A stretch of DNA of 64,000 nt from Saccharothrix sp. NRRL B-16314 (GTDB taxonomy: Bacteria; Actinomycetota; Actinomycetes; Mycobacteriales; Pseudonocardiaceae): positions 25,513-89,512 of the forward strand of contig NZ_JNXC01000032.1 in assembly GCF_000716595.1 (NCBI RefSeq). The letters are read 5' to 3'. Below the pieces are notes generated by a model that worked only from the letters and a program-made list of their open reading frames with translations, was not told where the DNA came from and did no database searches. The first letter of the stretch is position 1. Each line of letters opens with the position of its first letter. Below are positions 24,887 through 57,968 of this stretch, piece by piece. The position numbers and the translations under genes were made by a program.

Positions 24887-24890
24887 GAGG

Positions 24891-25024: not shown

Positions 25025-25067
25025 GACCGGCATCCTAGCCGGGCGGCGTGCCGGTATCGTGGGGATC

Positions 25068-28603: not shown

Positions 28604-29872
28604 ATGGACACCGACCGGATCGTCACCCGATTAACGGCGCTCACGCGTGACCACCTGGTGCCCGGCGTGCAGATCGCCGTGCACCGCGGCGGGAGCACGT
28701 GGACGCACGAGGTGGGCCTGCCCGCCGAGGCCGCCGTGCCGATCGGCTCGATCACCAAGACGTTCACCGCGACCATCGCCATGGCGCTCGTCTCCGACGG
28801 CGACCTCGCCCTGGACGCGCCGCTGTCCGACCACCTGCCCGTGGTGGCCGACGGTCTCACCTTGCGCCACCTCCTCAGCCACACCGGCGGACTCCCGTCG
28901 GACCCGGACGACGTGCGCGCCACCTCGCTCGGCCGCCACGTCCGGCAGGCCCTCCGCGAACTGCACCCCCTGCACCGGCCCGGCGCGGGTTTCTCCTACT
29001 CGAACATCGGGTACTGCCTCATCGGCCACCTGATCGAGGTGGCCACCGGGATGTCCTGGTCGGAGGCGGTGGAGGCGGTCCTGCTCCGCCCGCTCGGGCT
29101 GCACGCGCGATTCACCACCAGCCCGGACTCCGCCGTCGTCACCGGCCACGCGGTCAACCCCGCGACCGGCCGCGTCGTCCCGGTGCGGCAGTCACTGGCC
29201 CCGGTCGACGCGCCGGCGGGGGCACTGGCCGCCAGCGCGACCGACCTGGTCGTGTTCGGCCGGATGCTGGGCGGCGCCGAGCCGCGCCTGATCGACCCGG
29301 GCGAGCTGGCGCTCATGAGGGAACCCGTGCGGCACGCCGAGCCGTTCGGGATGGCCGACGGGTGGGGCCTCGGCCTCGCCCTGTTCCACCGGGACGGCGT
29401 CCGCTGGGTCGGTCACGACGGCACGGCGGACGGCACGTCCTGCCACCTCCGGGTCAACCCGGCCGACGGCACGGTGGTGGCGCTGACCACCAACGGCAGC
29501 ACCGGTTTCGCATTGTGGCGCGACCTGGTTCCGGAATTGGTCGCGGCGGGCCTGCCGGTGGCGGATTACGACGGAATGAGCGGCCTGCACCACCGCATCG
29601 CGCCGCCGCCGGACTGCGCGGGCCGTTTTCGCAACGGCGATGTCGAATACGCTGTGCGAGCGGTGGACCGGGAACGGCTGGCGCTCACCGTGGACGGCGA
29701 GCCGTTCGCGGACCTCTCGTTGTTCGACGGGCTGGTGTTCGCGATGCGTGATTCCGACACCGGCGACACCAACCAGACCGGGCGTTTCCTGCGCGACCCG
29801 GGAGACGGCGGGATCCGGTGGATCCAGATCGGCGGGCGACTCGCCCGCAGGCAGGTCCCGACAATGTCTTGA
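28604..29872 (+). CDS. SxxK serine hydrolase, predicted PBP-type thioesterase (SurE-like peptide cyclase)
   Basis: The 422-aa protein is a penicillin-binding-protein/class C beta-lactamase-fold hydrolase. It has S49-I-T-K52, Y132-S-N134 and H271-D-G273. A ~90-residue C-terminal beta-rich domain ('GRFRNGDVEYAVRAVDRERLALTVDGEPF') fits the lipocalin-like tail of PBP-type thioesterases. Such enzymes cyclise NRPS peptides head to tail in trans when the NRPS lacks a TE and ends on a D residue, as here. It is the first gene of the cluster, 65 bp before the NRPS. ATG 28604 has AGAGGA upstream and gives no signal peptide, as expected for a cytoplasmic cyclase. An in-frame ATG at 28484 would add a hydrophobic stretch but has no ribosome binding site. 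A resistance DD-peptidase is the main alternative. Confidence 0.8.
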   Translation: MDTDRIVTRLTALTRDHLVPGVQIAVHRGGSTWTHEVGLPAEAAVPIGSITKTFTATIAMALVSDGDLALDAPLSDHLPVVADGLTLRHLLSHTGGLPSDPDDVRATSLGRHVRQALRELHPLHRPGAGFSYSNIGYCLIGHLIEVATGMSWSEAVEAVLLRPLGLHARFTTSPDSAVVTGHAVNPATGRVVPVRQSLAPVDAPAGALAASATDLVVFGRMLGGAEPRLIDPGELALMREPVRHAEPFGMADGWGLGLALFHRDGVRWVGHDGTADGTSCHLRVNPADGTVVALTTNGSTGFALWRDLVPELVAAGLPVADYDGMSGLHHRIAPPPDCAGRFRNGDVEYAVRAVDRERLALTVDGEPFADLSLFDGLVFAMRDSDTGDTNQTGRFLRDPGDGGIRWIQIGGRLARRQVPTMS

Positions 29873-29937
29873 TCCGACGTTTGAACCCTTCGCGCAATGG
29901 GTACGCGCGCCCTTCGGCCAGAAAGGCACCTCACGCG

Positions 29938-32900
29938 ATGACGCACGCCCACAGTCTGCCGGAAATGATCGCCGCGCAGGCGCTGCGCACTCCCGGAGCG
30001 CCCGCGGTCATGTCCGCCGAGGAAGTGGTGAGCTACCGGGAACTCGACCACCGGGCGAACCGGCTCGCGCACCTGCTGATCGCGCGGGGCGCACGCCGGG
30101 AACGGGTGGTGGCGCTGGCGCTGCCCCGCTCGGTGGACAACGTGGTCGCGCGGCTCGCGGTGCTGAAGACCGGCGCCGCCTACCTGCCGATCGACCCGGA
30201 CTACCCGGCCGACCGGATCGCGTTCATGGTCGAGGACGCGCAACCGCTGCTCGTCCTCGACGACCTGCCCGAGTCGTCGGACCAGCCCGCCACCGCGCCC
30301 GAGGTGACGATCCGGCCGGACGACCCGGCGTACGTGATCTACACGTCCGGCTCGACGGGCCGCCCCAAGGGCGTCGTGGTGCCGCACAGAGGGTTACCCG
30401 CGTTCGCCAGAGCCGAGATCGCGCACTTCGACGTGCGGCCCGGCGACCGGGTGCTCCAGTTCTCCTCCCCCAGCTTCGACGCCTCCGTGCTGGAGCTGTG
30501 CATGGCCCTGCCCGCCGGCGCGACCCTCGTCGTCCCGCCGCCCGGACCACTGCTCGGCGACCAGCTCGCCCGGGTGATCACCGACTTCGGCGTCACGCAC
30601 GCCCTGATCCCGCCGGTCGCGCTGGCCACCGTGCCCGACCCGGCGCCGCCGTCGTTCCGCACGCTCGTCGTCGGCGGTGACGCCTGCCCGCCGGACCTCG
30701 TGGCGAAGTGGGTGCCCGGCCGCCGCATGATCAACGCCTACGGCCCGACCGAGTCCACCGTGGTCACGTCATGGAGTGAGGCGCTCGAACCCGGTGGCAC
30801 GCCACCGATCGGCAGGCCCATCCCCGGCACCGAGGTGCGGGTGCTGGACGACGACCTGCGCCCGGTGGCCGAGGGCGAGCTGTACGTCACGGGCGTCGGC
30901 CTGGCGCGCGGCTACCTGCGCCGGCCGGGCCTCACCGCGCAGCGGTTCGTGGCCGACCCGTTCGGCCGGCCCGGCACCCGCATGTACCGCACCGGTGACG
31001 TGGTCCGGCGCCGTGACGACGGCGTGCTGGAGTTCGTCGGCCGCGCCGACCACCAGGTGAAGATCCGGGGCTTCCGGGTCGAGCCGGGCGAGGTCGAAGC
31101 GCTGCTGCGCGGGTGCCCCGGTGTCGAGCACGCCGTGGTCGTGGCCCGGGACGAGCCGAAGCGGCTGGTCGCCTACGTGGTCGGCGCCACCGCCGGTCTG
31201 CGGGACCACCTCGCGGCGCGGCTGCCGGACTACCTGGTGCCGTCGGCGTTCGTCGAGCTGGACGCGTTCCCCTTGACCCCCAACGGGAAGCTGGACCGGG
31301 CCGCGCTGCCCGCGCCGGTCGTCGGCACCGCCCCTGAGGGTCACGTCGAGCCGCGCACCCCGGCCGAACGCCGGGTCGCCGACGTGTGGTCGGACGTGCT
31401 GGGCGTGCCGCGGGTGGGTGCGCTGGACGACTTCTTCGCCCTGGGCGGCGACTCGATCCTGGCCGTGCGGGCGTTGTCCCGGCTCGGCGGGCTGCCGGTG
31501 CGGGCCATGTTCGACCACCGCACGGTCGCCGCGCTCGCCGAAGCCCTGCCGGACGGCACCGCCCGGCCCGCCGGTGAGCGGAAGGCGATCGCCCGCGTGC
31601 CCGACGGGATGCCGCTACCGCTGTCGTCGGCGCAGCGCCGCCTGTTCTCGCTGGACGGCACCGCCGAGCAGAACACCGCGGTCGGGCTGCGACTGACCGG
31701 TGCGCTGGACGTGCCCCGCTTGGCGACGGCGCTGGACGCGTTGGCGGCTCGGCACGACGCGCTGCGCACCACCTTCGACGTGCTGGGCGACGAACCGGTG
31801 CAGGTGGTCGCGCCCAAGGGCACGATCCCGCTGCGCGTGCTGCCGACCTCCGACCCGGCGGCGCTCGGCCTGGACCAGCCGTTCGACCTGCGGCGCGGGC
31901 CGCTGACCCGTGCGGTGCTCTGCCCCCTGGGGCCGGACGAGCACCTGCTGGTCCTGGTGCAGCACCACATCGTCACCGACGGCTGGTCGGTGCAGGTGCT
32001 CCTGGAAGAGCTCGCGGAGCTGTACTCGGGCGGGCAGCCGGCCGAACCCGAGGTGCAATACCCCGACTTCGCGGTCTGGGACCGGAGCAGGTCCGAGGGC
32101 GACCCGGCCTACTGGCGCGAGCGGCTGGACGGCATCGAGTCGCTGGACCTGCCCACCGACCGCCCCCGGCCGCCGCTGCGCACGACGTCCGGCGCGGTGC
32201 TGCGGCGGACCCTGCCCGCGGACCTGGTGCGGAGGCTGGCGGACGTCGGCCGCGCGCACGACGCGACCCTGTTCATGACGCTCACCGCCGCCGTGCAGGT
32301 GCTGTTGTCCGCACGCGGCCGGCAGCGCGACGTCGCGGTCGGCACGGTCAGCTCCGGCCGTGACCGCACGGACCTGGAGCGCACCGTCGGGTTCTTCGTC
32401 CGCACGCTGGTGCTGCGCTCGTGGGTCGACCCGGACCTGCCGTTCACCGGGTTCCTCGACCAGGTGCGGGACACGACCCTCGAAGCGTTCACGCACGACG
32501 ACGTGCCGTTCGACCGGGTGGTGGAGGCGGTCCGGCCCGACCCGGACCCCAGCCGCACTCCCCTGGTGCAGGCCATGGTCGCGCTGCACCAGCCGCTGCT
32601 GCGCGACGCGTCGTTCGGCGACCTCGCCGCGGCCGAGTACGACTTGCCGCGCCCGGTGGCCCGGTTCGACCTGGTGGTGGAGTTCTGGCCGCGCGGCGAC
32701 GACCTGGCGTTGACCGTCGAGTACAACGCGGACCTGTTCGACGCGACGACGATCGAGGCGTTGGGCGACGACCTGGACTCGTTGCTGCGCCTCGTGGTGG
32801 ACGACCCGGACCGGCCGCTGCACGGCCTGGTCGAGCTGTCCTGGCCGTCCGGTGACGACGCGGTCCGCGTCCGCGGCGTCCGGGTCGACCTCGGCGAGGT

Positions 32901-35900
32901 GGAGGACGCGCTCCGGCGTCACCACGAGGTGACCGACGCGGCCGTGGTCGCGGTGGACCGGCGGCTGGTCGCGTACGTGACGCCCCCCGTCAACCCGGCG
33001 GCCCTGCGCGGGTTCCTCGGCCAGGTGCTGCCCGCGCACGCCGTGCCGTCGACGTTCGTCGGGCTCGACCACCTCGACCGCGACGCACTGCCGGAGCCGC
33101 CCGACGAACGCACCGAAGTCCGTTACGTGGCACCGCGAACGCCCGTGGAGGCCGTGCTGGCGACCGTGTTCGCCGACGTGCTGGGCGCGGCGCGGGTCGG
33201 TGTGCGGGACAACTTCTTCGCGCTCGGCGGCGACTCGATCCTGGGCATCCAGGTCGTCACCCGCGCCCGTCGCGCGGGCCTGGTGCTGACCTCGCGGGAC
33301 ATCTTCGCGCACCAGACGATCGCCGCCATCGCACCGCACGTGACCCGCGACCTGCCGCCGACCGCCGAGCAGGGCACGGTCACCGGCGCCGCGCCGCTCA
33401 CCCCGATCCAGCGCTGGTACCTGGAGCACCACACCGTCCGCCCCGAGCACTTCGAGCAGTCCGTGGTGGTCGACCTCGCCGGCGCAGACCTTGCCGACGC
33501 GAACCTCACCGGCGCGGACCTTGCCGACGTGGACCTTGCCGCGCTCCGCACCGCGCTCATCGCGCTGGTCGACCACCACGACGCGCTGCGCACCCGGTTC
33601 GAGGGCGACCGCCAGGTGATCGGCCCCCGCTGCCACGTCGACCCGTTGACGCTCGACCGCTTCGACCTCACCGAGGGACCGCTGCTGCGGGCGGAAGTCC
33701 TCGACGGGCGGTCCGTGCGGCTGACCGCGCACCACCTCGTGGTCGACGGCGTCTCCTGGCGCGTGCTGGTGGAAGACCTGATGACGGCCTACCGCCAGGC
33801 CCGCGCCGGCCAGACCGTCCACATCGGACCGAAGACCACCTCGTTCCGCGACTGGGCGACCCGGCTCGCCGAGCACGCCGCCGACGGCTTCGCCGACGAA
33901 CTGGACCACTGGACGACGGTGGCCGCCACCCCGACCGCCATCCCGCTCGACCGGCACGGCCCGAACACCGTCGGCTCCGAGCGCGAGGTGACGGTGCGGC
34001 TCACCGCCGACGAGACGGCCGCGCTGCTCCGCGACGTGCCCGGTGTGTACCGGACGCAGGTCAACGACGTGCTGCTGACCGCGCTCGGCCGGGTGCTGGC
34101 GGACTGGACGGGCCGCTCGCGCGTGCTGGTGGACCTGGAGGGCCACGGCCGCGAGGAGCTGTTCCCCGACGTGGACCTGTCCCGCACGGTCGGCTGGTTC
34201 ACCACCGTGTTCCCGGTCGCGCTCGACGTGCCCGACAGCGGTTGGGGCACGGCGTTGAAGTCGGTGAAGGAGCAGCTGCGCGCGGTGCCCCGGCGCGGCA
34301 TCGGGTACGGCGCACTGCGCCACCTCGCCCGCACCGCGCCGACCTGCGACCCGCGGATCGGCTTCAACTACCTGGGCCGGTTCGCCGAGGACCAGCGCGA
34401 CCTCGTGCTGTCCGCCGACCCGGACGCGACGCGCCCCCACCTGCTGGACGTGGTGGGGCAGGTGCGCGGCGACCGGCTCGCGTTCACCTTCCACTACAGC
34501 GGGAACGCGCACGACACGGCCACGATCACCCGGCTGGCCGACGGGTTCGCCGCGGCGCTGCGCGGCATCGTCGCGCACTGCGCCGAGCCCGACGCCGGTG
34601 GTCGCACGCCGTCCGACTTCCCGCTGGCGGACCTGACCCAGGCCGAGGTGGACCGGATCACCGGCGCCGACGCCTACCCGCTCACCCCGATGCAGGCGGG
34701 CATGGTGTTCCACGGCCTGGGCGACCAGGGCGCGTACTTCCAGCAGACCACGTTCGTGGTGGACGGCGTCACCGACCCGGCCGCGTTCGCCCGCGCCTGG
34801 CAGCGGGTGGTCGACCGGACGCCCGTGCTGCGCAGCTCGGTGCTGTGGGAGGGCGTGCGCGAGCCGTTGCAGGTCGTGCACGACCACGCCCCCGTGCCGT
34901 TCACGTTCCTGGACTGGAGCGACCTGGACGAGACGGCCCGCGCCGACCGGCTGCGCACGCTGCTGGCCGAGGACCGGGCGCAAGGCCTCGACCTCGGTGT
35001 GCCGCCGTTGATGCGGGTCGCGATCGCCCGCCTCTCCCCCACCAGCGTCCAGGTGCTGTGGACGTTCCACCACGTGCTGCTGGACGGCTGGAGCGTCTTC
35101 CACGTGCTGTCCGACGTGCTCGGCCCCGGTGACCTGCCGGAACGCCGACCGTTCCGCGACTACGTCGCCTGGCTGGCCCGGCAGGGCGACCACGACGAGG
35201 CCGAGGCGCACTGGCGTCGGGTGCTCGGCACGTTCGACGCGCCGACCCCGCTGCCCGCGGACCGCCCCGCGTCGCACGGCACGTCGTCCGAACGCGTCCC
35301 GATGGCGCTCACCGAGGCCGAGTCCGGTCGGCTGTACGAGTTCGCCCGCCGGCACCGGCTCACGCCGAGCGCGATCGTGCAGGGCGCGTGGGCGTTGCTG
35401 CTGGCCCGGTCCAGCGGCAGGCGTGACGTCTGCTTCGGCGCGACCGTGTCCGGCCGCCCGGCCGACCTGCCCGGCGTGGACGCGATCACCGGCATCTTCA
35501 TCAACACCCTGCCGGTCCGGGTCGAGGTCGACGGGACCGCGCCGGTGGCGGACTGGCTGCGCGCGTTGCAGGACGCGCAGGTCGACTCGCGGCGGTTCGA
35601 GCACGTGCCGCTGACCGACGTCCAAGCCTGGAGCGGGATCGAGCGCGGCGCCACCCTGTTCGACAGCGTGGTGGTGTTCGAGAACTACCCGGTCGAGTCG
35701 GCCGAGGGCCTGGGCCTGCGCGAGCTGTCCGCCATCGAGACCACCAGCTTCCCGCTCAGCGTCACCGCGTACCCGGCCGAACGGCTCGGCGTGCTGCTCG
35801 GCTACGAGCCCGCGATGTTCGAGCGGGCCACCGTCGAACGGCTGGGCGAGCGGCTGCGCAGGCTGCTCGTCGGCCTGGTCGCCGACCCGGACCGGCCGCT

Positions 35901-37680
35901 GGCCGACGTGCCGTGGCTGTCCGACGCGGAGATCCGGCAGGTCATCGTCGACTGGAACGGCGTGGTGGCCGACGAGCCGACCACCACGACCACCGGGCTG
36001 ATCACCGAGCTGATCGCCGCGCAGGTGGCGCGCACACCCGACGCGGTGGCGGTGACGGGCGGCGGCAAGAGCCTGACCTACCGCGAGCTGGACGAGACGG
36101 CCAACCGGCTGGCGCACCACCTGGTCAGGTCGGGCGTCGGGCCGGAGTCGGTGGTGGCGTTGCGGCTCCCGCGGTCGCCGGACCTCGTGGTCGCGGTGTT
36201 GGGCGTGCTCAAGGCGGGGGCGGCCTACCTGCCCGTCGACGTCTCGTACCCGGCCGACCGGATCGCGTACATGATCGCCGACTCCGGGGCGGCGCTCGTC
36301 CTGGATGCCCTCCCGGACCTGTCCGGGCTGCCCGACGACCCACCGGAAGTGGTGCTGCGGCGGGAGAACGCCGCGTACGTGATCTACACGTCCGGGTCGA
36401 CCGGCCGGCCCAAGGGCGTGGTCGTGACCCACACCGGCCTGGCGGCCTTCTCCACCGCCGAGATCGCGCACTTCGACGTGTCACCGGGCGACCGGGTGCT
36501 CCAGTTCTCCTCGCCCGCGTTCGACGCCTCGGTCCTCGAACTGTGCATGGCGCTGCCCGCCGGGGCCACCCTGGTCGTGCCACCGCCCGGACCGCTGCTC
36601 GGCCGGCACCTCGCGCGGTTCGTCACCGACTTCGAGATCACCCACGCCCTGATCCCCCCGGCGGCGCTCGCGACCCTCCCCGACGCCGAGCTCACCACGC
36701 TGCGCACTCTCGTCGTCGGCGGTGACGCCAGCTCGGCCGACCTCGTGCGCCGGTGGGCGCCCGGCCGACGGATGATCAACGCCTACGGGCCGACCGAGTC
36801 GACCGTCGTCACCTCCTGGAGCGACCCGCTCGAACCCGGCGGCGCACCACCGATCGGCCGTCCCATCCCCGGCACCGCGGTGCGCGTCCTGGACGACTCG
36901 CTCAAGCCCGTCCCGGCCGGCGTCACCGGTGAGCTGTACATCGCGGGCGCCGGCCTGGCCCGCGGGTACCTCGCCCGGCCCGGCCTGACCGCGCAGCGGT
37001 TCCTCGCCGACCCGTTCGGCGCGCCCGGCGAGCGGATGTACCGCACCGGCGACCTGGCCCGCTGGGACGACACCGGCACCCTGCACTACCTGGGCCGGGT
37101 CGACCAGCAGGTGAAGATCCGCGGGTTCCGGGTCGAGCTGGGCGAGGTGGAATCGGTCCTCGCGGCGCATCCTGGTGTCGCCCAGGTCGTTGTAGTGCCG
37201 AACGAGCACCGCCTGGTGGCGTACTTCGTGCCGGACAAGCCGACTACGGCATCGGAGCTGCGCGACCACACGGCCAGGGTCCTGCCCGACCACATGGTCC
37301 CGGCGGCGTTCGTCGCACTGGAAAGCATGCCGTTGACCGTCAGCGGCAAGCTCGACCGCGTCGCGCTTCCCGCGCCTGAGCGCGACGCGGTCACGTCCAG
37401 GGAGTACGTCGCACCCCGCACCGAGACCGAAGAGGCGATCGCCGCGATCTGGGCGGACGTGCTCGGCGTCGACGAGGTCGGCGTGGAGGACGGCTTCTTC
37501 GCACTCGGCGGCGACTCGATCCGCGGCCTGCACATCACCTCCCGGACCAAGGCGGCGTTCGGCGTCGACCTCTCCCCCCGCGACGTCCTCACCGCCCGCA
37601 CCGTGTCCGCCTTGGCCGAACTCGTCGAGGAACTGGTGCTCGCGGACCTCGAAGCCCTCGTTGCCGACACGGAGGCGTGA
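29938..37680 (+). CDS. Non-ribosomal peptide synthetase 1: A-T / C-(A remnant)-T-E / C-A-T
   Basis: The 2580-aa enzyme starts directly with an A domain, so it begins the chain. Approximate domains: A1 8-465, T1 470-541 (LGGDSI), C2 557-965 (HHIVTDG), remnant of A2 975-1058, T2 1063-1138 (LGGDSI), E2 1150-1570 (HHLVVDG), C3 1577-2005 (HHVLLDG), A3 2017-2485, T3 2490-2580 (LGGDSI). A1 and A3 have the same by-eye specificity code, DALLVGAVVK. Module 2 lacks motifs A1-A7 and the A10 Lys, so it cannot activate its own residue. E2 contains a short pentapeptide-repeat-like insert (about 33470-33545). ATG 29938 has GAAAGG upstream; it gives a normal A-domain start. The gene ends 7 bp before NRPS 2. 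Confidence 0.95.
29960..31570 (+). other. NRPS module 1: A1-T1 (initiation)
   Basis: Contains '[11 protein letters not shown]', '[20 protein letters not shown]', 'LTPNGKLDR' and 'ALGGDSIL'. The specificity code read by eye is DALLVGAVVK, a hydrophobic or aromatic type. There is no C or formyltransferase domain ahead of it, so the chain should begin with a free amine, as head-to-tail closure requires. Confidence 0.85.
31608..34650 (+). other. NRPS module 2: C2-(A2 remnant)-T2-E2, no working adenylation domain
   Basis: C2 and E2 have intact HHxxxDG motifs and T2 an intact GGDSI. Between C2 and T2 only about 85 residues remain of the usual ~470-residue A domain. The module should add and epimerise a residue that it cannot itself activate. 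Confidence 0.9.
32860..33118 (+). other. Remnant of the module 2 adenylation domain (C-terminal subdomain only)
   Basis: The sequence re-enters A-domain homology inside motif A8 ('[20 protein letters not shown]'). It continues through '[12 protein letters not shown]' and '[16 protein letters not shown]', then passes straight to 'DRDALPEPP'. The segment that normally reads PLT.NGKL, with the A10 Lys, is missing. Motifs A1-A7 are absent. The junctions keep the reading frame. Confidence 0.9.
34665..37680 (+). other. NRPS module 3: C3-A3-T3
   Basis: C3 follows an E domain and opens '[15 protein letters not shown]', as in D-donor (DCL) condensation domains. The A3 code by eye is DALLVGAVVK, the same as A1. 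No epimerase, so an L residue is expected. T3 ends the protein without a recognised docking domain. Confidence 0.85.
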
Positions 37681-37687
37681 CCCCGAC

Positions 37688-40600
37688 ATGACAACCTCCA
37701 AGCACGACCGCATCTCCGCGTTGCCGGAGCACGTGCGCGAACTCCTCCGCGCCCGGCTCGCGGGCAAGGCCGCCGGCCGACCCGCACGCGCCGACGTGAT
37801 CCCGCCCGCGCCGCGGGACGAGCCGCTGCCGCTGTCGGCGGGTCAGCAGCGGCTGTGGTTCCTCGCCCAGTTCCAGCCGGACAGCACCGAGTACACCAGC
37901 GCGGTGGCGTTGCGGCTCACCGGTTCGCTCGACCGGCATCGATTGACCGGGGCGCTGCGCGGGCTGGTGCGCCGGCACGAGTCGCTGCGCACCACGTTCG
38001 ACCAGGTCGAGGGCCGGCCGGTGCAGGTGGTGCACGACGACTTCGACTTCGACGTAGCCGATTTCGACGTAGCCCATTTCGACGTGACCGACGTCGACGA
38101 CCTGCGCGCGGAGCTGGACCGGCCGTTCGACCTGCGGCGCGGGCCGTTGTTCCGCGCCTCGCTGTTCCGGCTGGTCGGGTCCGACGACGTGCACGTGCTG
38201 CTGCTGACGGCGCACCACATCGTGGTGGACGGCTGGTCGCTCGGCCTGCTCATGGACGAGCTGGCCGCGCTCTACCGCGGCGAGACCCTGGCCCCGCCGA
38301 CCCTCCAGTACGCCGACTACGCCGTGTGGCAGCGGGAACGGCCGGTCGACACCGGCTTCTGGGTCGACCGGCTCGCGGGCGTCGTGCCGCTGGAGCTGCC
38401 GACGGACCGGCCCCGGCCGGCGGAACGCACGTCCGCGGGCGCCACGCACGAGTTCACGCTGCCCACCCGGCTGGCCGGCGACCTGGCCGAGCTGGCGCGG
38501 GTCAACGAGACCACGCTGTTCACCGCGCTGACGGCCGCGTGCAAGCTGCTCCTGGCCCGCTACTCGGGGCAGGACGACATCGCGGTCGGCACGGTCACCA
38601 GCGGGCGGAACCGGCCGGAGCTGGCCGGGCTCGTCGGCTTCCTCGTCGGCACCGTGGTGCTGCGGGACACCGTGGACACGTCGCGGTCGTTCACCGAGTT
38701 CCTGGCGCAGGTCAACCGCACCGCGCTGGACGCGTTCGCGCACGACGACGTGCCGTTCGACCGCGTGGTGGAGGCGGTGGGCGCGACCCGCGCCCCGAGC
38801 CGGACGCCGCTGTTCGACGTGATGGTGGTGCTGCAGAACGCTTCCCGGGCGCTGCCCGAGCTGCCGGGCCTGCGGGTGGAGGACCACCCGCTCACCCGCG
38901 CCTGGTCGAACTTCGACCTGAGCATCGACTTCACCCAGGACGACGACGGCATCCACGGTGTCGTCGAGTACAGCACCGAGCTGTTCGACGCGGACACGGT
39001 CGACCGGCTGTCGCGGCACCTGCTGGTGCTGCTGGCGGGCATCACCGCCGACCCGCACCGGCCGATGGCCGAGCTGTCGCTGCTGCTGGGCGACGAGCCG
39101 GCGGGCACGGGCCGGGACCTCGACGTGCCGGCCACCACGTTCCCCGCGTTGTTCGAGGCGCAGGTCCGCCGCACGCCGCACGCCACGGCCCTGGTGTGCG
39201 AGGACACCCGCCTCACCTTCGCCGAGGTCGACGCGCGGGCCAACCGGCTGGCCCACCACCTGCTGGCGGAGGGCGTGGAGCCCGAGCAGGTCGTCGCGCT
39301 GTCGCTGCCGCGCGACGCCGAGTGGGTGATCGGCATCCTGGGCATCCTCAAGGCCGGCGCGGTGTACCTGCCCGTCGACCCGGGGCTGCCCGAGGCACGC
39401 CGGCGGTACCTGCTGGAGGACTCGCGCGCGGTGCGCGTGATCGACGCGCCGGTCGACACCGCGGGTCTGCCCGAGACCGCCCCGGTGGTGCCGCTGCGGC
39501 CCGACCACGCGGCGTACGTGATCTACACCTCCGGCTCGACCGGCAAGCCCAAGGGCGTCGTGGTGGAGCACCGGCAGCTGGTGAACCTGCTGCACAACCA
39601 CCGCGCGGACTTCGCGGGCGAACACCTGCGGGTCGCCGTGTCCGCCGTGTTCTCCTTCGACACGTCGTGGGAGGGCCCGCTGCTCATGGCCGACGGCCAC
39701 GAGCTGCACGTGCTCACCGACGACGTGCGGCTGGAGCCGACCGCACTGGTGCGGTACGTGCGGGAGCACCGGATCGACTTCCTCGACCTCACCCCGTCCT
39801 ACGCCCGGCAGCTCCTCGCGGCGGGCCTGCTCGACGGCGACCGGCGGCCCAAGGTGCTGATGCTCGGCGGCGAGGCCCTGGGCACGGCGCTGTGGCAGGA
39901 GTTGGCGCGGGCCGACGTCGCCGCCCACAACTTCTACGGCCCCACCGAGACCACGGTGGACGCGGTGTCGTGCCGGATCACGGGCGACCGCCCGGTCATC
40001 GGCCGGCCGCTGGCCAACCTCACCGCGCGGGTCCTGGACGACGACCTGCGGCCGTTGCCGGTCGGGGTGCCCGGCGAGCTGTTCCTCGCGGGGCCCCAGG
40101 TGGCCCGCGGCTACCTCCACCGGCCGGGCCTGACCGCGGACCGCTTCCTCGCCGACCCCTGCGGCGAGCCCGGCTCCCGGATGTACCGCACGGGCGACAA
40201 GGTGCGGATGCTCGCCGTCGGCGGAGCCGACAACCAGGCAGAGCGGTACGTCCTCGAATACCTGGGTCGCACCGACGAGCAGGTCAAGGTCCGCGGTTTC
40301 CGGATCGAGCCCGGCGAGGTCGAGGCCGCGCTGCTGAGCCACCCGGACGTGCGGGAGGCCGCCGTGGTCGCGCGCACCGACAACGGGCACACCCGGCTGG
40401 TCGGGTACGTCGTCACGACCGGTCCGGCGGACCTGCGGGAGCACCTGCGGCGGACGCTGCCGGAGTACTCGGTGCCGTCGGCGTTCGTCGAGCTCGACCA
40501 CCTCCCGCTGACCGCCAACGGGAAGCTGGACAAGGCCGCGCTGCCCGCGCCGCAGGCGGTCGGCGACGGCGAGTTCGTCGCGCCGCGCACACCGGTCGAA

Positions 40601-46600: not shown

Positions 46601-49600
46601 CTGCCGCGCTCGGCCGATTCAGTGGTGGCGATCCTGGCCGTGCACAAGGCGGGCGCGGTCTACCTGCCGGTCGACCACGGCCTGCCCCGCGAGCGTGTGG
46701 ACTTCCTGCTCGCCGACGCGGAACCGGCGCTGGTGCTCGACGCCGTGCCGGACCTCACCGGTTATCCCGCCACCGCTCCGGACGTGCCGCTGCGGCCCGA
46801 CCAGGCCGCCTACGTGATCTACACGTCCGGTTCGACCGGCGTGCCCAAGGGCGTCGTGGTCGAGCACCGGCAGCTGGCGAACCTCCTGCACGACCACCGC
46901 CGGACGTTCTCGGCCCGGCGGCTGCGGGTCGCGCTGAGCGCGGTGTTCTCGTTCGACACGTCGTGGGAGGGTCCGCTGCTCATGGCCGACGGCCACGAGC
47001 TGCACGTGCTGACCGACGACGTCCGCCTCGAACCGGCCGCCCTGGTCGGGTACGTGCGCGAGCACCGGATCGACTTCCTCGACCTCACCCCGTCGTACGT
47101 GCGGCAGCTCATCCCGGCCGGTCTGCTCGACGGCGGGCACGTGCCGGCGGTGCTCATGCTCGGCGGTGAGGCGCTGCCCGAACCGCTGTGGCGGGAGTTG
47201 GCCGGGTCGCGGACCACGGCGCACAACTACTACGGCCCGACCGAGGTCACCGTCGACGCGGTCGCCACCCGCGTCACCGGTGACCGGCCCCTGATCGGCC
47301 GTCCGCTGGGCAACCTCGTCGCCCACGTGCTGGACGACGACCTGCGGCCGGTGCCGTCCGGTGTGCCCGGTGAGCTGTTCCTCGGCGGCGCACAGGTCGC
47401 GCGCGGCTACCTCAACCGGCCGGGTCTCACCGCGCAGCGGTTCCTGCCCGACCCGTTCGGCGAGCCCGGCTCCCGGATGTACCGCACCGGCGACCGGGTC
47501 CGCTGGGTCGGCGACCAGCTCGACTACCTGGGCCGCGACGACGACCAGGTGAAGGTCCGCGGGTTCCGGGTGGAACCCGGCGAGGTGGAGTCGGCGCTGC
47601 TGCACCACCCCGCCGTGACCCAGGCGGCCGTGGTGGCACGCGAGCACAACGGCCACCAGCGGCTGGTCGCCTACACCGTCGGCACGGCGCCCGACCTGGC
47701 CGGCTGGCTCAAGCAGCGGCTGCCGGACTACCTGGTGCCGTCCGCGTTCGTGCCGCTGGAGGCGCTGCCCCTGACGCCGAGCGGCAAGGTGGACCGGCGG
47801 GCACTGCCCGCGCCGACGTTCACCGACGCCGGGTACGTGGCGCCCGAACCGGGTGTCGCGGCCACGCTCGCCGACATCTGGGCCGACGTGCTGGGTGTCG
47901 AGCGGGTCGGCGCGCGGGACAACTTCTTCGCGCTCGGCGGCGACTCGATCCTGAGCATGCAGGTCGTGTCGCGGGCCCGCCAGGCGGGGCTGGAGCTGAC
48001 CTCCAAGGACGTCTTCCTGCGCCAGACGGTCGCGGACCTCGCGCTCGCCGTCACCACGACCAGCGGGCCGAACCACCAGCCCGTCATGCCTGATTCGCCT
48101 GGTCATGCGCCCCTCACCCCGATCCAGCGCTGGTTCTTCACGGAACAGGGACCGTTGGCGCACTTCACCATGTCCGTGGTGGTGGAGTTGGGCGACGTCG
48201 AGCCCGCCGCGGTGCAGGCCGCCGTGCGGGCCGTCGTCGCCCACCACGACGCGCTGCGGCTGCGGTTCAGCCAGGTGGACGGCGTCTGGCGGCAGGAAGT
48301 GGCGGAGGACGAGTCCGACGTGTTCTGCGTCGCGACCACTCCCGACCTCGCCGCCGAGGCCGAACTCGCTCGGGCGAGCCTCGACCTGAGGCGCGGCCCG
48401 TTGCTGCGCGCGGTGCTGTTCCCCGGTGGCAGGCTGTTCGTCACCGCGCACCACCTGGTGGTCGACGCGGTGTCGTGGCGGATCGTGCTGGCGGACCTGG
48501 ACACCGTGCTGGCCGGTGGCGAACTCGGCCCGAAGAGCACGGCGTTCACCGACTGGGCGCGCAGGCTGGACCGGCACGTGCGGGACGGCCGGTTCGACGG
48601 CGCCCTGCCGCACTGGGCCGCCGTGCCGGTGGAGGAACCCGTGCCGACGACGGCCGGCACCGCGCGGAGCGTGTCGGTCCGGTTGAGCCGGGCCGAGACG
48701 GACGCGCTGCTGCACGCCGTCCCCGACGCCTACCGGACCCGGGTCAACGACGTGCTGCTCACCGCGCTCACGTCGGCGTTCGGCGGGCGGGCGCTGATCG
48801 CGCTGGAGGGCCACGGCCGCGAGGAGCTGTTCGAGGGGGTGGACCTGTCCCGGACGGTCGGCTGGTTCACCGCGCAGTTCCCGGTGGAGCTCGGACTGCC
48901 CGACGGCGACTGGGGCACCTCGCTCAAGTCGGTGAAGGAGCAGTTGCGGGCCGTCCCCGACATGGGGTTGAGCTACGAAGCCCTCAAGTACGGCGACCGC
49001 GGCGTGACCGGCGCGCTGCCGCGGGTCTGCTTCAACTACCTGGGCCAGTGGGGCGGTGGGCTCGCCGAGTCGTCGGACGCCGAGGTCGACCACGGCCGCG
49101 AGGTGCCGGACGACCTGACCCGCCCGCACCTGCTGGACATCACCGCCGCCGTGTCCGCGGGCGAACTCGTGGTGGACTGGGAGTACTCCACCGACGTCCA
49201 CGACGAGGCCGAGGTGCGGGCGTTGGCGGACGGGATGGCGGACGCCCTGCGCGGGATCGTGGCGTTCTGCGCCCGGCCTGACGCCTGGGGCCGCACGCCG
49301 TCCGACTTCCCGCTGGCGGCGCTCACCGCCGACCAGGTGGACCGGATCACCGACCGGGACGTGGAGGACGTCTACCCGCTCACGCCGTTGCAGGCGGGCA
49401 TGTTGTTCCACAGCCTCGTGGACGACGGCACGGCCTACGTCAACCAGCTGCGCGTACGACTGTCCGATGTGGACCCGGAGCGGTTGGCGCGTGCGTGGCA
49501 GCGGGTCGTCGACCGCACGCCGATCCTCCGTTCCGACCTGGTGTGGGAGGGCCTGGACGAGCCGGTGCAGGTCGTCCGGCGCGGCGTGACCGTGCCGGTG

Positions 49601-52600
49601 ACCTACGCGGACGTCACGGACGAGCTGGTCGCGGCCGACGCCGCCGCCGGCGTGGACCTGACCGCGGCGCCGTTGATGCGGTTGACGATCGGGCGGGTGT
49701 CCGACACCGAGGTCGACCTGCTGTGGACGTCGCACCACGTGCTGCTGGACGGTTGGAGCACGGCGCAGGTGTTCGGCGAGGTGCTGAACGAGTGCGCGGG
49801 CGGCCCGGCACCGGTCCGGCGGCCGTTCCGCGACTACCTGGCCTGGCTCGCCGACGTGGACCAGACCGCCGCCGAGTCGCACTGGCGCGGCGTGCTGGCC
49901 GGGTTCGAGACGCCCACCCCCCTGCCGTTCGACCGGCCGCCGGCCGAGGCGCACCGGGCCGAGTCGTCCGCCCGGGTCGTGCTCGACCTGCCCGCCGAAC
50001 GCCTCGACGCGGTCGCCCGCACCCACGGCCTCACGGTGAACACGCTGGTCCAGGGCGCGTGGGCGCTGCTGTTGGCCCGGACCGCCGGCCGGCGGGACGT
50101 GGTGTTCGGCAGCACGGTGTCCGGTCGCCCGGCCGAGCTGCCCGGCGTCGAGTCGATGGTCGGCATGTTCATCAACACCGTGCCCACCAGGGTGTCGGTC
50201 GAACCCGAGGCCGACGTGGTCGGCTGGTTGCGGCGGTTGCAGGAGTCGCAGATCGAGTCACGGCGGTTCGAGCACGTGTCGCTGGCGCAGCTGCGGGGTT
50301 GGGCCGGGATCGAGTCGGACCCGCACTCCCGCCTGTTCGACAGCCTCCTGGCGTTCGAGAACTACCCCGTGGACAAGGACACCCCCGACGGCGGGCCGCG
50401 GGTCGGCGAGGCGAGCGGCACGGACACCACCACGTTCCCGCTCACCGTGGCCGCGCACCTGGACGACTCGCTGCACGTGGAGCTGAACTACGACCCACGC
50501 CTGTTCGACGCCGCCACCGTCACCGCGCTCGGCGACCGGCTGCGCCGGCTGCTCGACGGGATCGGCGCCGACCCGGGCCGGCGGGTGTTCGAGCTGCCGT
50601 GGCTGTCCGACGCCGACCTGGACCGGGTGCTCGCGTCGTGGCACGGCCCCGCGTCCGGTGCCGTGGTGGAGGACACCATCAAGTCGCGGTTCGCCGCGCA
50701 GGCCGCGCGCACCCCCGACGCGGTGGCGGTGACGAGTGACGGGACGAGCCTGACCTACCGGGAGCTGGACGAGCGCGCGAACCGGTTGGCGCACCACCTG
50801 ATCGGGACGGGCATCGGACCGGAGTCGGTGGTGGCGTTGACGTTGCCGCGGTCGCCGGAGCTCGTCGTCGCGATCCTGGGCGTGCTCAAGGCGGGCGCGG
50901 CCTACCTGCCGGTGGACGTCTCGTACCCGGCGGACCGCGTCGCCTACATGCTCTCCGACGCACGGCCGGCGCTCGTCCTGGACGCCCTGCCGAACCTGGC
51001 CGGGCTGCCCGCCGACGCACCGGACGTGGTGCTGCGACCGCAACACGCGGCGTACGTGATCTACACGTCGGGTTCGACCGGCAAGCCGAAGGGCGTGGTC
51101 GTCACGCACGCCGGCCTGGCGACGTTCTCGGCCGCCGAGATCGCGCGCTTCGACGTGTCACCGGGCGACCGGGTGCTCCAGTTCTCCTCCCCCAGCTTCG
51201 ACGCCTCGGTGCTGGAGCTGTGGATGGCGCTGCCCGCCGGCGCCACGCTGGTCGTGCCACCGCCCGGACCGCTGCTCGGCGAGCAGCTGGCCGGGTTCGT
51301 CACCGGGTTCGGCATCACCCACGCGCTGATCCCGCCGGCGGCGCTGGCCACCGTCGCGGATGGCGAGCTGCCGACGCTGCGCACCCTGGTGGTGGGCGGC
51401 GACGCGACCTCGGCCGAACTCGTGCGCCGGTGGGCGCCCAGCCGTCGGATGATCAACGCCTACGGCCCGACCGAGTCCACCGTCGTCACGTCGTGGAGCG
51501 AGGCGCTGGAACCCGGCGGCACGCCACCGATCGGCCGGCCCATCCCCGGCACCTCGGTGCGGGTGCTGGACGACGCGTTGCAGCCCGTTCCCGTCGGTGT
51601 CACCGGGGAGCTGTACGTCTCGGGTGTCGGCTTGGCGCGCGGGTACCTGGACCGGCCGGGGCTGACCGCGCAGCGGTTCGTCGCCGACCCGTTCGGGGCG
51701 CCGGGTGCGCGGATGTACCGGACCGGCGACCTGGTCCGCGTCCGCGACGACGGCCAGTTGGCCTTCGTGGGCCGCGCCGACCACCAGGTCAAGCTGCGCG
51801 GCTTCCGGATCGAGCTGGGCGAGGTCGAGGCCGTGCTGGCCGCGCACGACGCCGTGGCGCAGGTCGTGGTCGTCCTGCGGGAGAACCGCCTGGTCGCCTA
51901 CTACGTGCCGGCAGGGCAGGTGGACGCCGCCGGGTTGCGCGAACACGCGGGGCGGCAACTGCCCGAGTACATGGTGCCGACCGCGTACGTGGCGCTGGAA
52001 CGGTTGCCGCTCAACGCCAGCGGCAAGCTGGACCGGGCCGCGCTGCCCGCGCCGGAACGGGAGGCGTCGACGGCGGGCGGGTTCGTCGCGCCGCGCACCG
52101 AGGCCGAACGGCTGGTCGCGGACGTGTGGGCCGACGTGCTGGGTGTGGACGCGGTGGGCGCGGAGGACAACTTCTTCACCCTCGGCGGCGACTCGATCTC
52201 CAGCATCCGGGTGGTGTCGCGCCTGCGGTCGTCCTACGACGTGTCGCCGCGCGACCTGTTCGACCACCCGACCGTGATGGCGCTCGCGGCCCGCCTCTCC
52301 GGGACCACTCCTCCAGGGTTCGCCTCGAACGTCACGGTGATCCCCCGGGTCGACGGTGACGTGCCGCTGTCGTTCGCGCAGCAGCGGTTGTGGTTCCTGG
52401 ACCAGTTCTCCCCCGGCGGGACCGAGTACGTGACGCCGCTGGCCGTGCGACTGCGCGGCGCGCTGGACGTGCCCCGGCTGGAACGGGCGCTGACGGGGGT
52501 GGTGGCGCGGCACGAGTCGCTGCGGACCACGTTCCCGGCGGTGGACGGGCTGCCGGTGGCGGTGGTGCACCCGCCGGCGGACGTCGTGCTGCCGGTGGTG

Positions 52601-55600
52601 GACGAGATGCCCGCGGTGGAGCCGTTCGACCTGTCCGAGGGGCCGCTGTTCCGGCCGGTGCTGGTGCGGCTCGGGCCGGACGACCACGTGCTGGCGTTGA
52701 CCGCGCACCACATCGTCACCGACGGCTGGTCCGGCGGCGTGCTGATGTCCGACCTGACCGCCCTGTACGGCGGTGAGGAGCTGCCCCCGCTGCCCATCCG
52801 GTACGGCGATTTCGCTGCCTGGCAACGGGAACAGCCGCTGGACGCGCAGCTGGACCACTGGCGGGCGCAGCTGGCGGACGTGCCCGCGCTGGAGCTGCCG
52901 ACCGACCGGCCACGGCCGCCGGTGCAGACGACGGCGGGCGCCCAGACGGAGTTCACGGTGCCCGCGGCGGTGGCCGACCGGTTGCGCGAGCTGGCGCGGG
53001 CCGTGGACGGCACGTTGTTCATGGCGTTGGTGGCGGCCTGCCAGGTGCTGTTCCACCGGTGGTCCGGGCAGGACGACTTCGCGGTGGGCACGGTGGCGTC
53101 GGGGCGGGACCGGCCGGAGACGCAGGGCCTGATCGGGTTCTTCGTCAACACGGTGACGCTGCGGGCGCGGATCGAGCCGTCCGAGACGTTCCCGGAGTTC
53201 CTGGTCCGGACGCGGAACACCGTGCTGGACGCGTTCGCGCACCAGGAGGTGCCGTTCGAGCGGGTGGTGGACGCGGTGCAGCCGGACCGCGACACCAGTC
53301 GCACGCCGTTGTTCCAGGCCGTGGTGGCGTTGCAGAACGCGCCGCAGGCGACCGGCTTCCCGGGACTGGACGCGTCGGACGTCGCGCAGCCCGTGGTGAG
53401 CACCGGGTTCGACGTGACCGTGGAATTCGCCGAGGCGGACGACGGGCGGTTGCACGGGTCGGTCGAGTACAACACCGACCTGTTCGACGCGGGCACGGTC
53501 GGGCGGCTGGTCGAGCACCTGGGCGTGCTGCTGGCCGGGATCGCGGCGGACGCCGACCGTCCACTGTGGTCGTTGCCGGTGGTGCCGGACGCGGAGCTGG
53601 AGACGGTGGAGGCGTGGGGTTCCACGGGTCCGGCAAGTTCTGCGGGTTCTGCGGGTTCTGCGGGTTCTGCGTTCGACGGTCTCGGGTTCGTGGAGCTGGT
53701 CGAGGCGCAGGTGGTGCGGACGCCGGACGCGTTGGCGCTGACGGGCGCGGTCGACGTCACGTACGCCGACCTGAACGCACGGGCGAACCGCCTGGCGCAC
53801 CACCTGATCGGGCTCGGCGCCGGACCGGAGCGGGTCGTCGCGCTGCGGCTGCCCCGCTCGGTGGACCTCGTGGTGGCCGAGTTGGCGGTGCTGAAGGCCG
53901 GCGCCGCGTTCCTGCCGGTCGACCCGGAGTACCCGGCGGAGCGCATCTCGTTCATGCTGGCCGACGCCCGGCCGCTGGTGGTGCTGGACGGTCCGGTCGA
54001 CGTGTCCGGGCAGCCCGACACGAATCCCGGTGTGGCGGTGCGGCCGGAGCACCCGGCGTACGTGATCTACACGTCCGGGTCGACCGGGCGGCCGAAGGGC
54101 GTCGTGGTGACGCACGCCGGTCTGCCCGCGTTCTCGGCGGCGGAGATCGCCCACTTCGACGTGTCGCCGGGTGACCGGGTGCTGGAGTTCTCCTCCCCCA
54201 GCTTCGACGCGTCGGTGCTGGAGCTGTGCCTGTCGTTGCCGGCGGGTGCGGCGCTCGTCGTGCCGCCGCCGGGGCCGCTGCTGGGCGACCAGTTGGCCGA
54301 GGTGATCGACACCTACGGGGTGACGCACGCGCTGATCCCGCCGGTGGCGCTGGCCACCGTGCCGGACGTGGCGCTGCCGACGTTCCGCACGCTCGTCGTG
54401 GGCGGTGACGCGTGTTCGGCGGACCTCGTGCGGCGGTGGGCGCCCGGCCGGCGGATGGTCAACGCGTACGGGCCGACCGAGTCCACTGTGGTCACGTCGT
54501 GGAGCGGACCGCTGGAACCCGGTGGCGCGCCGCCGATCGGGCGGCCGATCCCGGGCACCGGGGTGCACGTGCTGGACGGCGAGCTGCGGCCCGTCCCGAT
54601 CGGGGTGGCCGGTGAGCTGCACGTGTCGGGCGTCGGGCTGGCGCGCGGCTACCTGGACCGGCCGGGGCTGACGGCGTCGCGGTTCGTGGCGAACCCGTTC
54701 GGGCCGCCCGGGTCGCGGATGTACCGCACGGGCGACGTGGTGCGGTGGAACGCCTCCGGGGTGCTGGAGTTCGTCGGACGCGCCGACGAGCAGGTGAAGA
54801 TCCGCGGGTTCCGGATCGAGCTCGGCGAGGTCGAGACGGCCCTGCTGCGGCACCCGGACGTGCGCGAGGCGGTCGTGGTGGCGCGGGCCGACGCCCGTGG
54901 CCACAAGCGGCTCGTCGCGTACGTGGTGGGTGAGGTGGCGAAGGTCCGGGACTTCCTGGGCGAGTCGCTGCCGGACTACCTCGTGCCGTCGCTGTTCGTG
55001 CCGGTGGACGCGTTGCCGATCAGCTCGAACGGCAAGGTCGACCGGGCACGCCTGCCGGAGCCGGACTTCTCGGCGGTGACCGGCGGCGAGTACGTGCCGC
55101 CGTCGGGGCCGGTGGAGGAGGCGCTGGCGGCGGTGTGGGCGAACGTGCTCGGCGTGCCGCGCGTCGGGGTGGAGGACAACTTCTTCTCGCTCGGCGGTGA
55201 CTCGATCCTGAGCATGCAGGTGGTGGCGCGGTCGCGGCAGGCCGGGTACCGGTTCGCCACGCGGGACCTGTTCACGCACCAGACCATCTCGTCCCTGGCG
55301 CCGCACGTGTCGGTGGAGGCCGTGTCGGCGGCCGATCGGGCGCCGGTGGTGGGTGACGTGCCGTTGACGCCGATCCAGCACTGGTTCCTGCACTCGGGGC
55401 GGAGCAACCCGCACCACTTCAACCAGTCGCACATGGTGGAGCTGGACCCGGCGGTGGACGTGGCGGCGTTGCGGCGGGCGTTGGGCGTGCTGGTGGCGCA
55501 CCACGACGCTCTGCGGCTGCGGTTCACGTCGGTCGACGGGGTGTGGCGGCAGCACAACGACGACGTCGGCGAGGTAGACGTGCTGACCGTCGTCGACGGG

Positions 55601-56569
55601 ATGTCGGAGGTGGAAGCCGTCGCGGACGAGGTGCACGCGTCGTTCGACCTGGAGACCGGGCCGTTGTTCAAGGCGGTGCTGTTCCGGGCCGCGCAGCCGG
55701 TGTTGTTGCTGGTCGCGCACCACCTGGTGGTGGACGGGGTGTCCTGGCGGGTCCTGCTCGACGACCTGGAGACCGCGTACCGGGGCGATGACCTCGGTGC
55801 CAAGACGACCTCGTACCAGGAGTGGGCGCGGCGGTTGGAAGCCCACGTGCTCGGCGGTGGGTTGGACGAGGAGATCGAGCACTGGAGCACGCCGTTCCCG
55901 CCGTCTCCGCCGCCTCAGGGCGGGACGGAAGCCGTCACGGTGGAGTTGTCGGAGGAGGACACGGACGTGTTGCTGCGCGGTGCGCCCGCCGCGTACCGGA
56001 CCCGGATCAACGACGTGCTGCTGACCGCGTTGGCGTGGGCGTTGTCCCGGTGGACCGGGTCGTCGCGGGTCGCGGTGGACCTGGAGGGCCACGGGCGGGA
56101 GGACGTGCTGGACGTGGACCTCTCGCGGACCGTCGGCTGGTTCACCACCATGTTCCCGGTGGCGCTTGACCTGCCGGAGGGGACGTGGCGGGACCGGGTG
56201 AAGGCGGTGCGGCGGCAGTTGCGCGCCGTGCCGGGCAACGGTTTCGGCTACGGGGCGCTGCGGCAGCACGGCCTGGTGCCCGACGCCGGGCGGCCCGCGG
56301 TGTCGTTCAACTACCTGGGCCAGTTCGACGGCGGTTCGGCCGAGTCGACCGGGCTGTACCGGTCGGCGCTGCCGTCCGTCGGCCTGGACCACGACCCGGC
56401 GGACGCCGGAGACCACGTGCTCGACGTGGTCGGCGAGGCCGGCCGGACGTTGGGCTTCACCTGGTACTACCACCCGGCCGTGCACTCGGCGGCGGAGATC
56501 GAAGCGGTGGTCGCCGACTTCGGCGCGGCGTTGCGGGCCATCGCCGCGGATTGTCGAGGTGCCGCATGA
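37688..56569 (+). CDS. Non-ribosomal peptide synthetase 2: five modules, ending in an epimerase, no thioesterase
   Basis: The 6293-aa enzyme carries C4-A4-T4-E4, C5-A5-T5, C6-A6-T6-E6, C7-A7-T7, C8-A8-T8-E8. Approximate starts in residues: C4 45, E4 1052, C5 1487, C6 2485, E6 3472, C7 3893, C8 4890, E8 5890. All C domains keep HHxxxDG. E4 and E8 keep it too, while E6 reads HHLVVDA. The A codes by eye are DTEDMGFVDK (A4), DTEDMGYVDK (A5, A6) and DALLVGAVVK (A7, A8). The protein stops directly after E8 ('AADCRGAA'); no GxSxG thioesterase follows. ATG 37688 lies 12 nt after GGAGG and 7 nt after the NRPS 1 stop. The stop overlaps the start of the MFS gene as ATGA. Confidence 0.96.
37820..42130 (+). 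other. NRPS module 4: C4-A4-T4-E4
   Basis: The A4 code by eye is DTEDMGFVDK. Acidic residues at the 239, 278 and 331 positions suggest a cationic or strongly polar side chain (inference). E4 has HHLAVDG, so a D residue is expected. C4 contains a short 'FDV.' repeat insert at 38041-38095. Confidence 0.85.
42145..45075 (+). other. NRPS module 5: C5-A5-T5
   Basis: C5 follows E4 and is of the D-donor type ('[16 protein letters not shown]'). The A5 code is DTEDMGYVDK. No epimerase, so an L residue is expected. Confidence 0.85.
45140..49350 (+). other. NRPS module 6: C6-A6-T6-E6
   Basis: C6 is of the L-donor type. The A6 code is DTEDMGYVDK, as in A5. The E6 active-site motif is HHLVVDA instead of HHxxxDG; the catalytic His and Asp remain, so activity is likely but not certain. 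Confidence 0.85.
49365..52310 (+). other. NRPS module 7: C7-A7-T7
   Basis: C7 follows E6 and is of the D-donor type ('[16 protein letters not shown]'). The A7 code is DALLVGAVVK, returning to the hydrophobic class of modules 1 and 3. An L residue is expected. Confidence 0.85.
52355..56566 (+). other. NRPS module 8: C8-A8-T8-E8 (terminal)
   Basis: C8 is of the L-donor type. The C-A linker carries a (SAG)n run (about 53634-53674). The A8 code is DALLVGAVVK. E8 (HHLVVDG) is the last domain, so the finished chain carries a C-terminal D residue on T8, the substrate form accepted by PBP-type thioesterases. Confidence 0.87.
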
Positions 56570-57780: not shown

Positions 57781-57968
57781 GGGACGACATCGCTTACCAG
57801 GTGCTCGTGAACGACGAGGGCCAGTACTCCCTGTGGCCCGCACACCACGACGTGCCCGCCGGGTGGAGGTTCGAGGGCACCAAGGGCACCAAGGACGAGT
57901 GCTCCGCGCACGTGGACGAGGTGTGGACGGACATGCGCCCAGCGTCCTTGCGCGCCGCCATGGACTGA
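57777..57968 (+). CDS. MbtH-like protein (NRPS adenylation chaperone)
   Basis: The 63-aa protein carries the MbtH signature: 'VLVNDEGQYSLWPAHHDVPAGWRFEGTKGTKDECSAHVDEVWTDMRPASLR'. The invariant 'QYSLWP' and 'WTDMRP' are present. MbtH proteins bind A domains and are often needed for their solubility and activity. Here it would serve one or more of the seven A domains. AGGAGGAGAAGG precedes the ATG. It is the last gene of the cluster and is followed by a strong terminator. Confidence 0.96.
   Translation: MRDDIAYQVLVNDEGQYSLWPAHHDVPAGWRFEGTKGTKDECSAHVDEVWTDMRPASLRAAMD

Follow-up and report, generated by a model that had tools for sequence, protein, structure and literature searches.

Cyclic octapeptides released from nonribosomal peptide synthetases (NRPSs) by cyclases of the penicillin-binding protein (PBP) type are already known, as the surugamides exemplify. 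Surugamide A (surA/surD and SurE) is an octapeptide made by an NRPS that has no thioesterase (TE) domain, ends in an epimerization (E) domain, and is served by a stand-alone PBP-type cyclase; the part of PMC11012974 that deals with it places E domains in modules 2, 4, 7, and 8, which gives the order L-D-L-D-L-L-D-D. Passages of PMC7565604, PMC11735501, and PMC7459860 describe cyclases of this type as coupling an L residue at the start of the peptide with a D residue at its terminus, and the section of PMC7459860 that reviews desotamide-family clusters states that module and monomer numbers agree in them, the 18 modules of sur apart. The cluster studied here lies in a window of 64,000 nucleotides from Saccharothrix sp. 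NRRL B-16314 (contig NZ_JNXC01000032.1, G000:C32:25513-89512; all coordinates below are positions within this window), and it has the same general construction as that of surugamide A, including the missing TE, the terminal E domain, and the stand-alone cyclase. It does not match the surugamide order of configurations, because its layout predicts strict alternation, and, unlike the surugamide and desotamide-family clusters, it contains an internal module, module 2, that lacks an adenylation (A) core. The A-less module, rather than the D,L alternation, is the oddest feature of the locus. We propose that the thiolation (T) domain of this module, T2, would be charged by A1 on the same polypeptide, so that residues 1 and 2 would be the L and D forms of one amino acid.

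The two NRPS frames span 29818-37680 and 37661-56569, with likely ATG starts at 29938 and 37688, respectively. NRPS1 (29938..37680, plus strand, as are all features of the cluster) has the order A1-T1-C2-[A remnant]-T2-E2-C3-A3-T3, where C denotes condensation domains, and opens with A1 (29950..31317) and T1 (31330..31557). C2 (31606..32832) is followed by a segment (32833..33108) that aligns with the A motifs A8-A10 only, the A core and the A10 lysine having been deleted, so that the spacing between C2 and T2 (33109..33339) is ~92 amino acids instead of ~460. Pfam recognizes eight carrier domains (3 + 5 in the two proteins) and seven AMP-binding cores (2 + 5), and NRPS1 yields three stretches each for AMP-binding_C and TIGR01733, consistent with a remnant of A2. 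An earlier sequence-only reading of this stretch had counted eight modules; the eight T domains bear this out, whereas self-sufficiency of all eight modules in residue activation does not hold, with only seven A cores present. A similar remnant with the same ends is found in Saccharothrix, Lentzea, and Allokutzneria, and in Actinokineospora the remnant of module 2 has been lost as well. The three genomes from a genus matching Allokutzneria have gone further and also lost the A domain of module 3, leaving an NRPS1 of the form A-T-C-T-E-C-T with one A domain per three T domains. An assembly error behind the absent A2 core was rejected, as the absence recurs in 42 loci.

Those 42 loci were found among 91 cyclase loci (31 + 60, mostly better-scoring ones) that were fetched and examined from a list of at least 131. 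By genus, 22 belong to that of the window, four to Lentzea, 10 to Actinokineospora, two to Actinophytocola, three to the genus matching Allokutzneria, and one to a further genus, g22. Within the window's own genus, the A-less module 2 occurs in 22 of 25 genomes, and the remaining three have no cyclase ortholog. S. algeriensis DSM 44581 also has both the cyclase and the A-less module 2, at locus L009. A tree of the cyclases took in 77 of the 91 loci, including 32 of the 42 A-less ones, and 31 of these 32 form a single clade (99/98), the A-less label needing two changes on the tree. Because the A-less rows share one clade, the loss of A2 is old and retained, an ancestral state and not decay, while the single A-less row that stands apart, from genome G213, is possibly a second case. 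A junction search across 21 genomes from the same order returned matches to A-T regions in general. That the cluster is decaying, inactivated by the loss of an otherwise essential domain, is hardly credible in view of an A-less module common to 22 of 25 genomes of the genus and to five other genera. In-domain stops, too, were absent from 28 clusters apart from gene-end stops in five rows of E8 and in one of E7 that a position filter had mis-numbered (G082), and the ratios of nonsynonymous to synonymous substitution (dN/dS) given below are well under 1.

What remains of module 2 is strongly conserved. The serine of the GGDS motif of T2 is intact in the window and present in 28/28 clusters, and HHxxxDG is retained in all 28 rows of C2 (HHIVTDG in the window) and all 27 rows of E2 (33382..34617; HHLVVDG in the window). 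Across the 22 genomes of the genus, T2 is the most conserved of the T domains, with a mean identity of 0.928 against 0.805-0.874 for the others, or 0.906 against 0.789-0.876 with another trimming. In A-less clusters, T2 exceeds both T1 and T3 in all four divergence bins, whereas in control clusters with the same start and a full set of A domains it exceeds T3 in only one of four. A comparison of T2 between A-less and A-full clusters shows a clear difference where the cyclases are of low identity (0.756 vs 0.643) and a small one where their identity is higher (0.875 vs 0.844, 0.900 vs 0.865, and 0.959 vs 0.914). The dN/dS values from six species pairs were 0.00-0.24 for T2, 0.15-0.31 for C2, 0.17-0.32 for E2, and 0.00-0.47 for the remnant. 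T2, along with C2 and E2, is under purifying selection, and module 2 is kept in working order. An arginine in loop 1 of T2, present in 42/42 A-less clusters, was considered as a T2-specific mark and dropped, since T6 carries it in 24/28. The presence of only seven A domains could also mean that module 2 is skipped or merely epimerizes residue 1, giving a heptapeptide. We consider this quite improbable because the motifs of C2, T2, and E2 are intact and selected, with T2 the best preserved carrier of all, and because of the stereochemical argument that follows.

The sequence-only reading had placed E domains in modules 2, 4, 6, and 8 only, had assigned C3, C5, and C7 to the D-donor type, and had found E8 to be last with no TE present, and all three observations hold. 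NRPS2 (37688..56569) has the order C4-A4-T4-E4/C5-A5-T5/C6-A6-T6-E6/C7-A7-T7/C8-A8-T8-E8, its modules lying at 37817..42085 (module 4), 42140..45052 (module 5), 45140..49312 (module 6), 49364..52300 (module 7), and 52352..56566 (module 8), and E8 extends to the end of the protein. When NRPS2 was split in two and scanned with Pfam, the only families returned were condensation, AMP-binding, and carrier families, and no thioesterase. All four E domains of the window carry EGHGRE and VGWFT, so none shows the motif loss that would suggest an inactive epimerase, and E domains occupy modules 2, 4, 6, and 8 in 28/28 complete clusters of the same layout. Across the relatives, EGHGR[ED] is found in 27/27 rows of E2, E4, and E8 and in 26/27 of E6, while VGWFT is absent from four E4 and two E6 rows. 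For the C domains, a tree was built from 107 C and E rows taken from the window, the other NRPSs of the genome, and clusters linked to such cyclases in other bacteria, the C domains being labeled by position only, as following E or following T; it was restricted to C and E domains of at least 1000 bp and to C domains preceded by either E or T. The E domains form one clade (support 100), all 30 C-after-E rows and three C-after-T rows form another (99), and the remaining 34 C-after-T rows form a separate one (99). C3 (34666..35922), C5, and C7, which start with YPLTPxQAGM, belong to the C-after-E clade, the D-donor (DCL) type, and C2, C4, C6, and C8 to the C-after-T clade, the L-donor (LCL) type. 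Because E positions and C subtypes agree, strict alternation is supported, and the phylogeny, in setting C3, C5, and C7 outside the LCL clade, leaves the octapeptide prediction standing.

The release step that the absent TE would otherwise leave unexplained is provided by a gene directly upstream of NRPS1 (28604..29872), which encodes a stand-alone PBP-type thioesterase of the SurE/Ulm16 family. In a phmmer search against the PDB, the protein matched 8fek (Ulm16) at 4.4e-61 and 6ksu at 1e-60, the latter being SurE according to the relevant lines of PMC11735501, and its SITK, YSN, and HDG motifs line up with both; its nearest named relatives are from Saccharothrix. With a stand-alone cyclase bearing the Ser/Lys, Tyr/Asn, and His motifs and a terminal E domain without an in-line TE, the locus belongs, by the features tested, with the PBP-cyclase NRPSs, and a head-to-tail cyclic product is predicted. 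An octamer is favored since it would have L-residue 1 and D-residue 8, as PBP-type cyclases require. The heptapeptide made by epimerizing residue 1 would start with a D residue and end with D-residue 8, in violation of this heterochirality rule. The pentaminomycin/BE-18257 system (PenA) likewise has a PBP-type cyclase and a peptide that begins with an L residue and ends with a D residue, as an excerpt of PMC7565604 has it, but its products are pentapeptides from five modules each. At the sequence level, then, both the E/C pattern and the cyclase support the strictly alternating cyclic octapeptide predicted in the sequence-only reading.

Nine specificity-code positions were placed in each A domain by motif alignment to the GrsA numbering. 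A1, A3 (A3-T3, 35995..37623), A7, and A8 all read DALLVGAVV, and A4 reads DTWDMGFVD and A5 and A6 DTWDMGYVD, in agreement with the earlier estimate of four residues of one type and three polar ones. The pocket of DTWDMG[FY]VD is presumably polar and acid-lined, perhaps for a basic residue. DALLVGAVV is alike at six of eight positions to an aromatic code, DALVMGAV, in the part of PMC7565604 that gives it, and at seven of nine to a Leu code, DGMLVGAVVK, in Table 3 of PMC8399532; because both are similar, we call its residue, X, only large and hydrophobic, probably Leu or an aromatic. A full-text search retrieved the control DAYWWGGTF from one paper and found none of the exact window codes in print, a review (PMC11253843) contained none of the code fragments sought, and A1 and A4, when searched against the PDB, matched general A-domain relatives only. 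Across the 28 complete clusters, the residue class is constant at positions 1, 4, 6, and 8 and changes at positions 3, 5, and 7. Among the 42 A-less clusters, A1 keeps DALL[VI]GAVV in every case while the A3 code may be of the Thr, the Ser, a hydrophobic, or another type, Thr-, Ser-, or other-type codes being found in most relatives. The Thr and Val codes were taken from PMC9113097. The idea that A3 and A7 of the window are copies of A1 and A8 was discarded on nucleotide identity, which is 0.848 between A3 and A7 and 0.754-0.769 between either of them and A1 or A8, and A3 and A7 instead evolve with each other. In genome G024, A3 and A7 share an identical run of 212 nt at an overall identity of 0.877, which points to a recent exchange between these two A domains. 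The last A domains of three cyclase-last clusters, L038, L039, and L040 (Amycolatopsis, Allokutzneria, and Actinokineospora), have the code DTLDMGFVD, which resembles those of A4-A6.

The predicted ring would be X1-(D)X1-X3-(D)Pol4-Pol5-(D)Pol6-X7-(D)X8. A head-to-tail cyclic octapeptide of L-D-L-D-L-D-L-D configuration, with A1 charging both T1 and T2, is the account that we prefer, and we hold it with moderate confidence. The constancy of the A1 code in 42/42 clusters while that of A3 varies supports A1 as the loader, and A3 is unlikely to be a general loader because three genomes have lost the A domain of module 3. Taken further, the comparison suggests that one A domain may charge two consecutive T domains in cis, or three in the genus matching Allokutzneria, that across the family A domains were lost stepwise, always at the same positions and without shortening of the chain, and that positions 3, 5, and 7 have been varied between species by A-domain replacement, a broader scheme to which we would give an even chance.

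T2 might instead be charged by an A domain from elsewhere, such as a stand-alone A protein, A8, or another NRPS, in which case residue 2 need not equal residue 1. Loading of this kind has been demonstrated for the A-less C-peptidyl carrier protein unit of WS9326A, according to the passages of PMC7539972 on such units, which also name yersiniabactin HMWP2 and syringomycin as systems with carriers that lack their own A domain and are charged by one elsewhere. The stand-alone A domains of WS9326A are, however, encoded in its cluster, and none was found in that of the window: at E 1e-30, TIGR01733 matches on the contig of the window are confined to the seven A domains of the two NRPSs, so that a trans-acting A gene belonging to the cluster itself was rejected. 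Domain models likewise found no extra A gene in the 28 loci of the same layout; the exceptions are G247, which has a partial A domain upstream, and G003, G012, and G024, where A-subdomain matches lie upstream. The last three genomes have, ~5-7 kb upstream of the cyclase, an AMP-ligase-like frame whose TIGR01733 score of 176-179 bits is below the cut-off of 317; no such frame occurs on the contig of the window at E 1e-30. In G001, which has the same A-less module, 20 A domains exceed the cut-off used for A-domain frames (317.4 bits) and none of them, among the matches listed, is in a frame under 1000 amino acids, which disfavors a stand-alone loader in that genome. We therefore regard loading from elsewhere as somewhat unlikely, while giving it real weight.

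Several findings weigh against A1 as the loader, or against the octapeptide as drawn. The window's genome has stand-alone A frames of 569 and 572 amino acids over the cut-off, and seven of eight other genomes (G003, G012, G024, G023, G030, G032, and G080, all A-less) have such frames of less than 800 amino acids, among the matches listed. In G001, a genome rated 90% complete, a frame of 839 amino acids falls just short of the cut-off at 315.4 bits. The code of A8 is that of A1 in 28/28 clusters, and A8 may be the loader of T2, as may an NRPS elsewhere. In five A-full relatives (G219, G239, G382, L025, and L028), A2 has the Val code DAYWWGGTF, and the lost A2 may thus have differed from A1 in specificity. 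G213 (genus g22, 12.8 Mb) is A-less and has the A1 code DALL[VI]GAVV, but its long-branched cyclase is not part of the main A-less clade, possibly through a second origin, a transfer, or a long-branch artefact. Finally, E6 (48098-49312) has HHLVVDA in place of HHxxxDG, a variant kept in 24/27 E6 rows.

A precedent for loading by A1 comes from clusters of the mannopeptimycin type, for which two Streptomyces loci, neither of them the record of the mannopeptimycin producer, serve here as representatives. The clusters of Streptomyces inhibens (L031) and S. inusitatus (L032) have a PBP-type cyclase and end in C-A-T/C-T-E, an A-less C-T-E module thus following an A-bearing one as in the window, although in these clusters the A-less module comes last. 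L031 encodes an enduracididine beta-hydroxylase (489.7 bits, cut-off 345), the L032 protein is 89% identical to it, and mannopeptimycin contains, in the passage of PMC5238550 on its structure, L-beta-hydroxyenduracididine, then the same residue in D configuration, and Ser; both clusters may therefore make mannopeptimycin. No match to the hydroxylase was found in the window by tblastn, which sets the window apart from that type. By analogy, the two clusters would point to the upstream A domain as the loader of T2. Cluster L034 has a 68% relative of the L031 hydroxylase and a last module that keeps its A domain; nothing was found to support its identity as a surugamide cluster, and this identity was not used. 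Another NRPS of the window's genome (G000:C6:154763-160563, minus strand) apparently has two consecutive A-less C-T-E units after an A-T-E module, with C-to-E gaps of ~400 bp, and is perhaps another case of one A domain with several T domains.

Downstream of NRPS2, a major facilitator superfamily (MFS) exporter gene (56566..57780; Pfam MFS_1 7.3e-37 on frame 56185-57780) starts in overlap with the NRPS2 stop, and it is followed by a gene for an MbtH-like protein (57777..57968; Pfam MbtH 2.7e-21), a relative of which flanks 26 of 30 compared loci, including 21/21 of those in the genus. The minimal cluster would hence comprise the PBP-type cyclase, two NRPSs, the exporter, and MbtH, and the reading as a whole, with loading of T2 by A1, is one that we judge reasonably probable. 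Ten frames on either side, all lying after the first 21.9 kb of the window, were scanned with Pfam, and no gene recognizable as making an amino-acid precursor was found among them. Upstream, at 24041-25682, are genes for an EamA transporter and a RelA/SpoT-domain protein, whose relatives occur in the same flank at 21 of the 30 compared loci, these being all 21 other members of the genus, so that the chromosomal position of the cluster is conserved within the genus. The genome, at 8.93 Mb, has 52 condensation-type matches.

A full-text search for cyclic octapeptides or NRPSs from Saccharothrix found, among the papers listed, no title or abstract describing such a product, in a body of literature that largely leaves out subscription papers. 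That the predicted ring might be flat and stack into tubes is suggested by analogy with synthetic peptides and with lugdunin, which, in the part of PMC11389392 concerned, stacks into channels recalling alternating D,L ring designs; lugdunin is a heptapeptide and the product predicted here an octapeptide. The likeness is to be taken as an analogy.

The presence of the cluster in 22 of 25 genomes of the genus, together with two flanking genes common to all 21 other members, suggests that the locus is old, has been inherited vertically, and is of some importance to the host bacteria. If A1 serves T2 (and T3 where the third module has also lost its A domain), the enzyme would be a compact NRPS in which one loader feeds several stations, an arrangement that would be useful for engineering. 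It would also break the rule of one A domain for one residue, since a count of A domains would predict seven residues. Synthetic D,L rings form membrane channels, and if the prediction is true, the products of these clusters would be a natural family of strictly alternating octapeptides, whose division into hydrophobic and polar residues would make them the counterpart of such rings.

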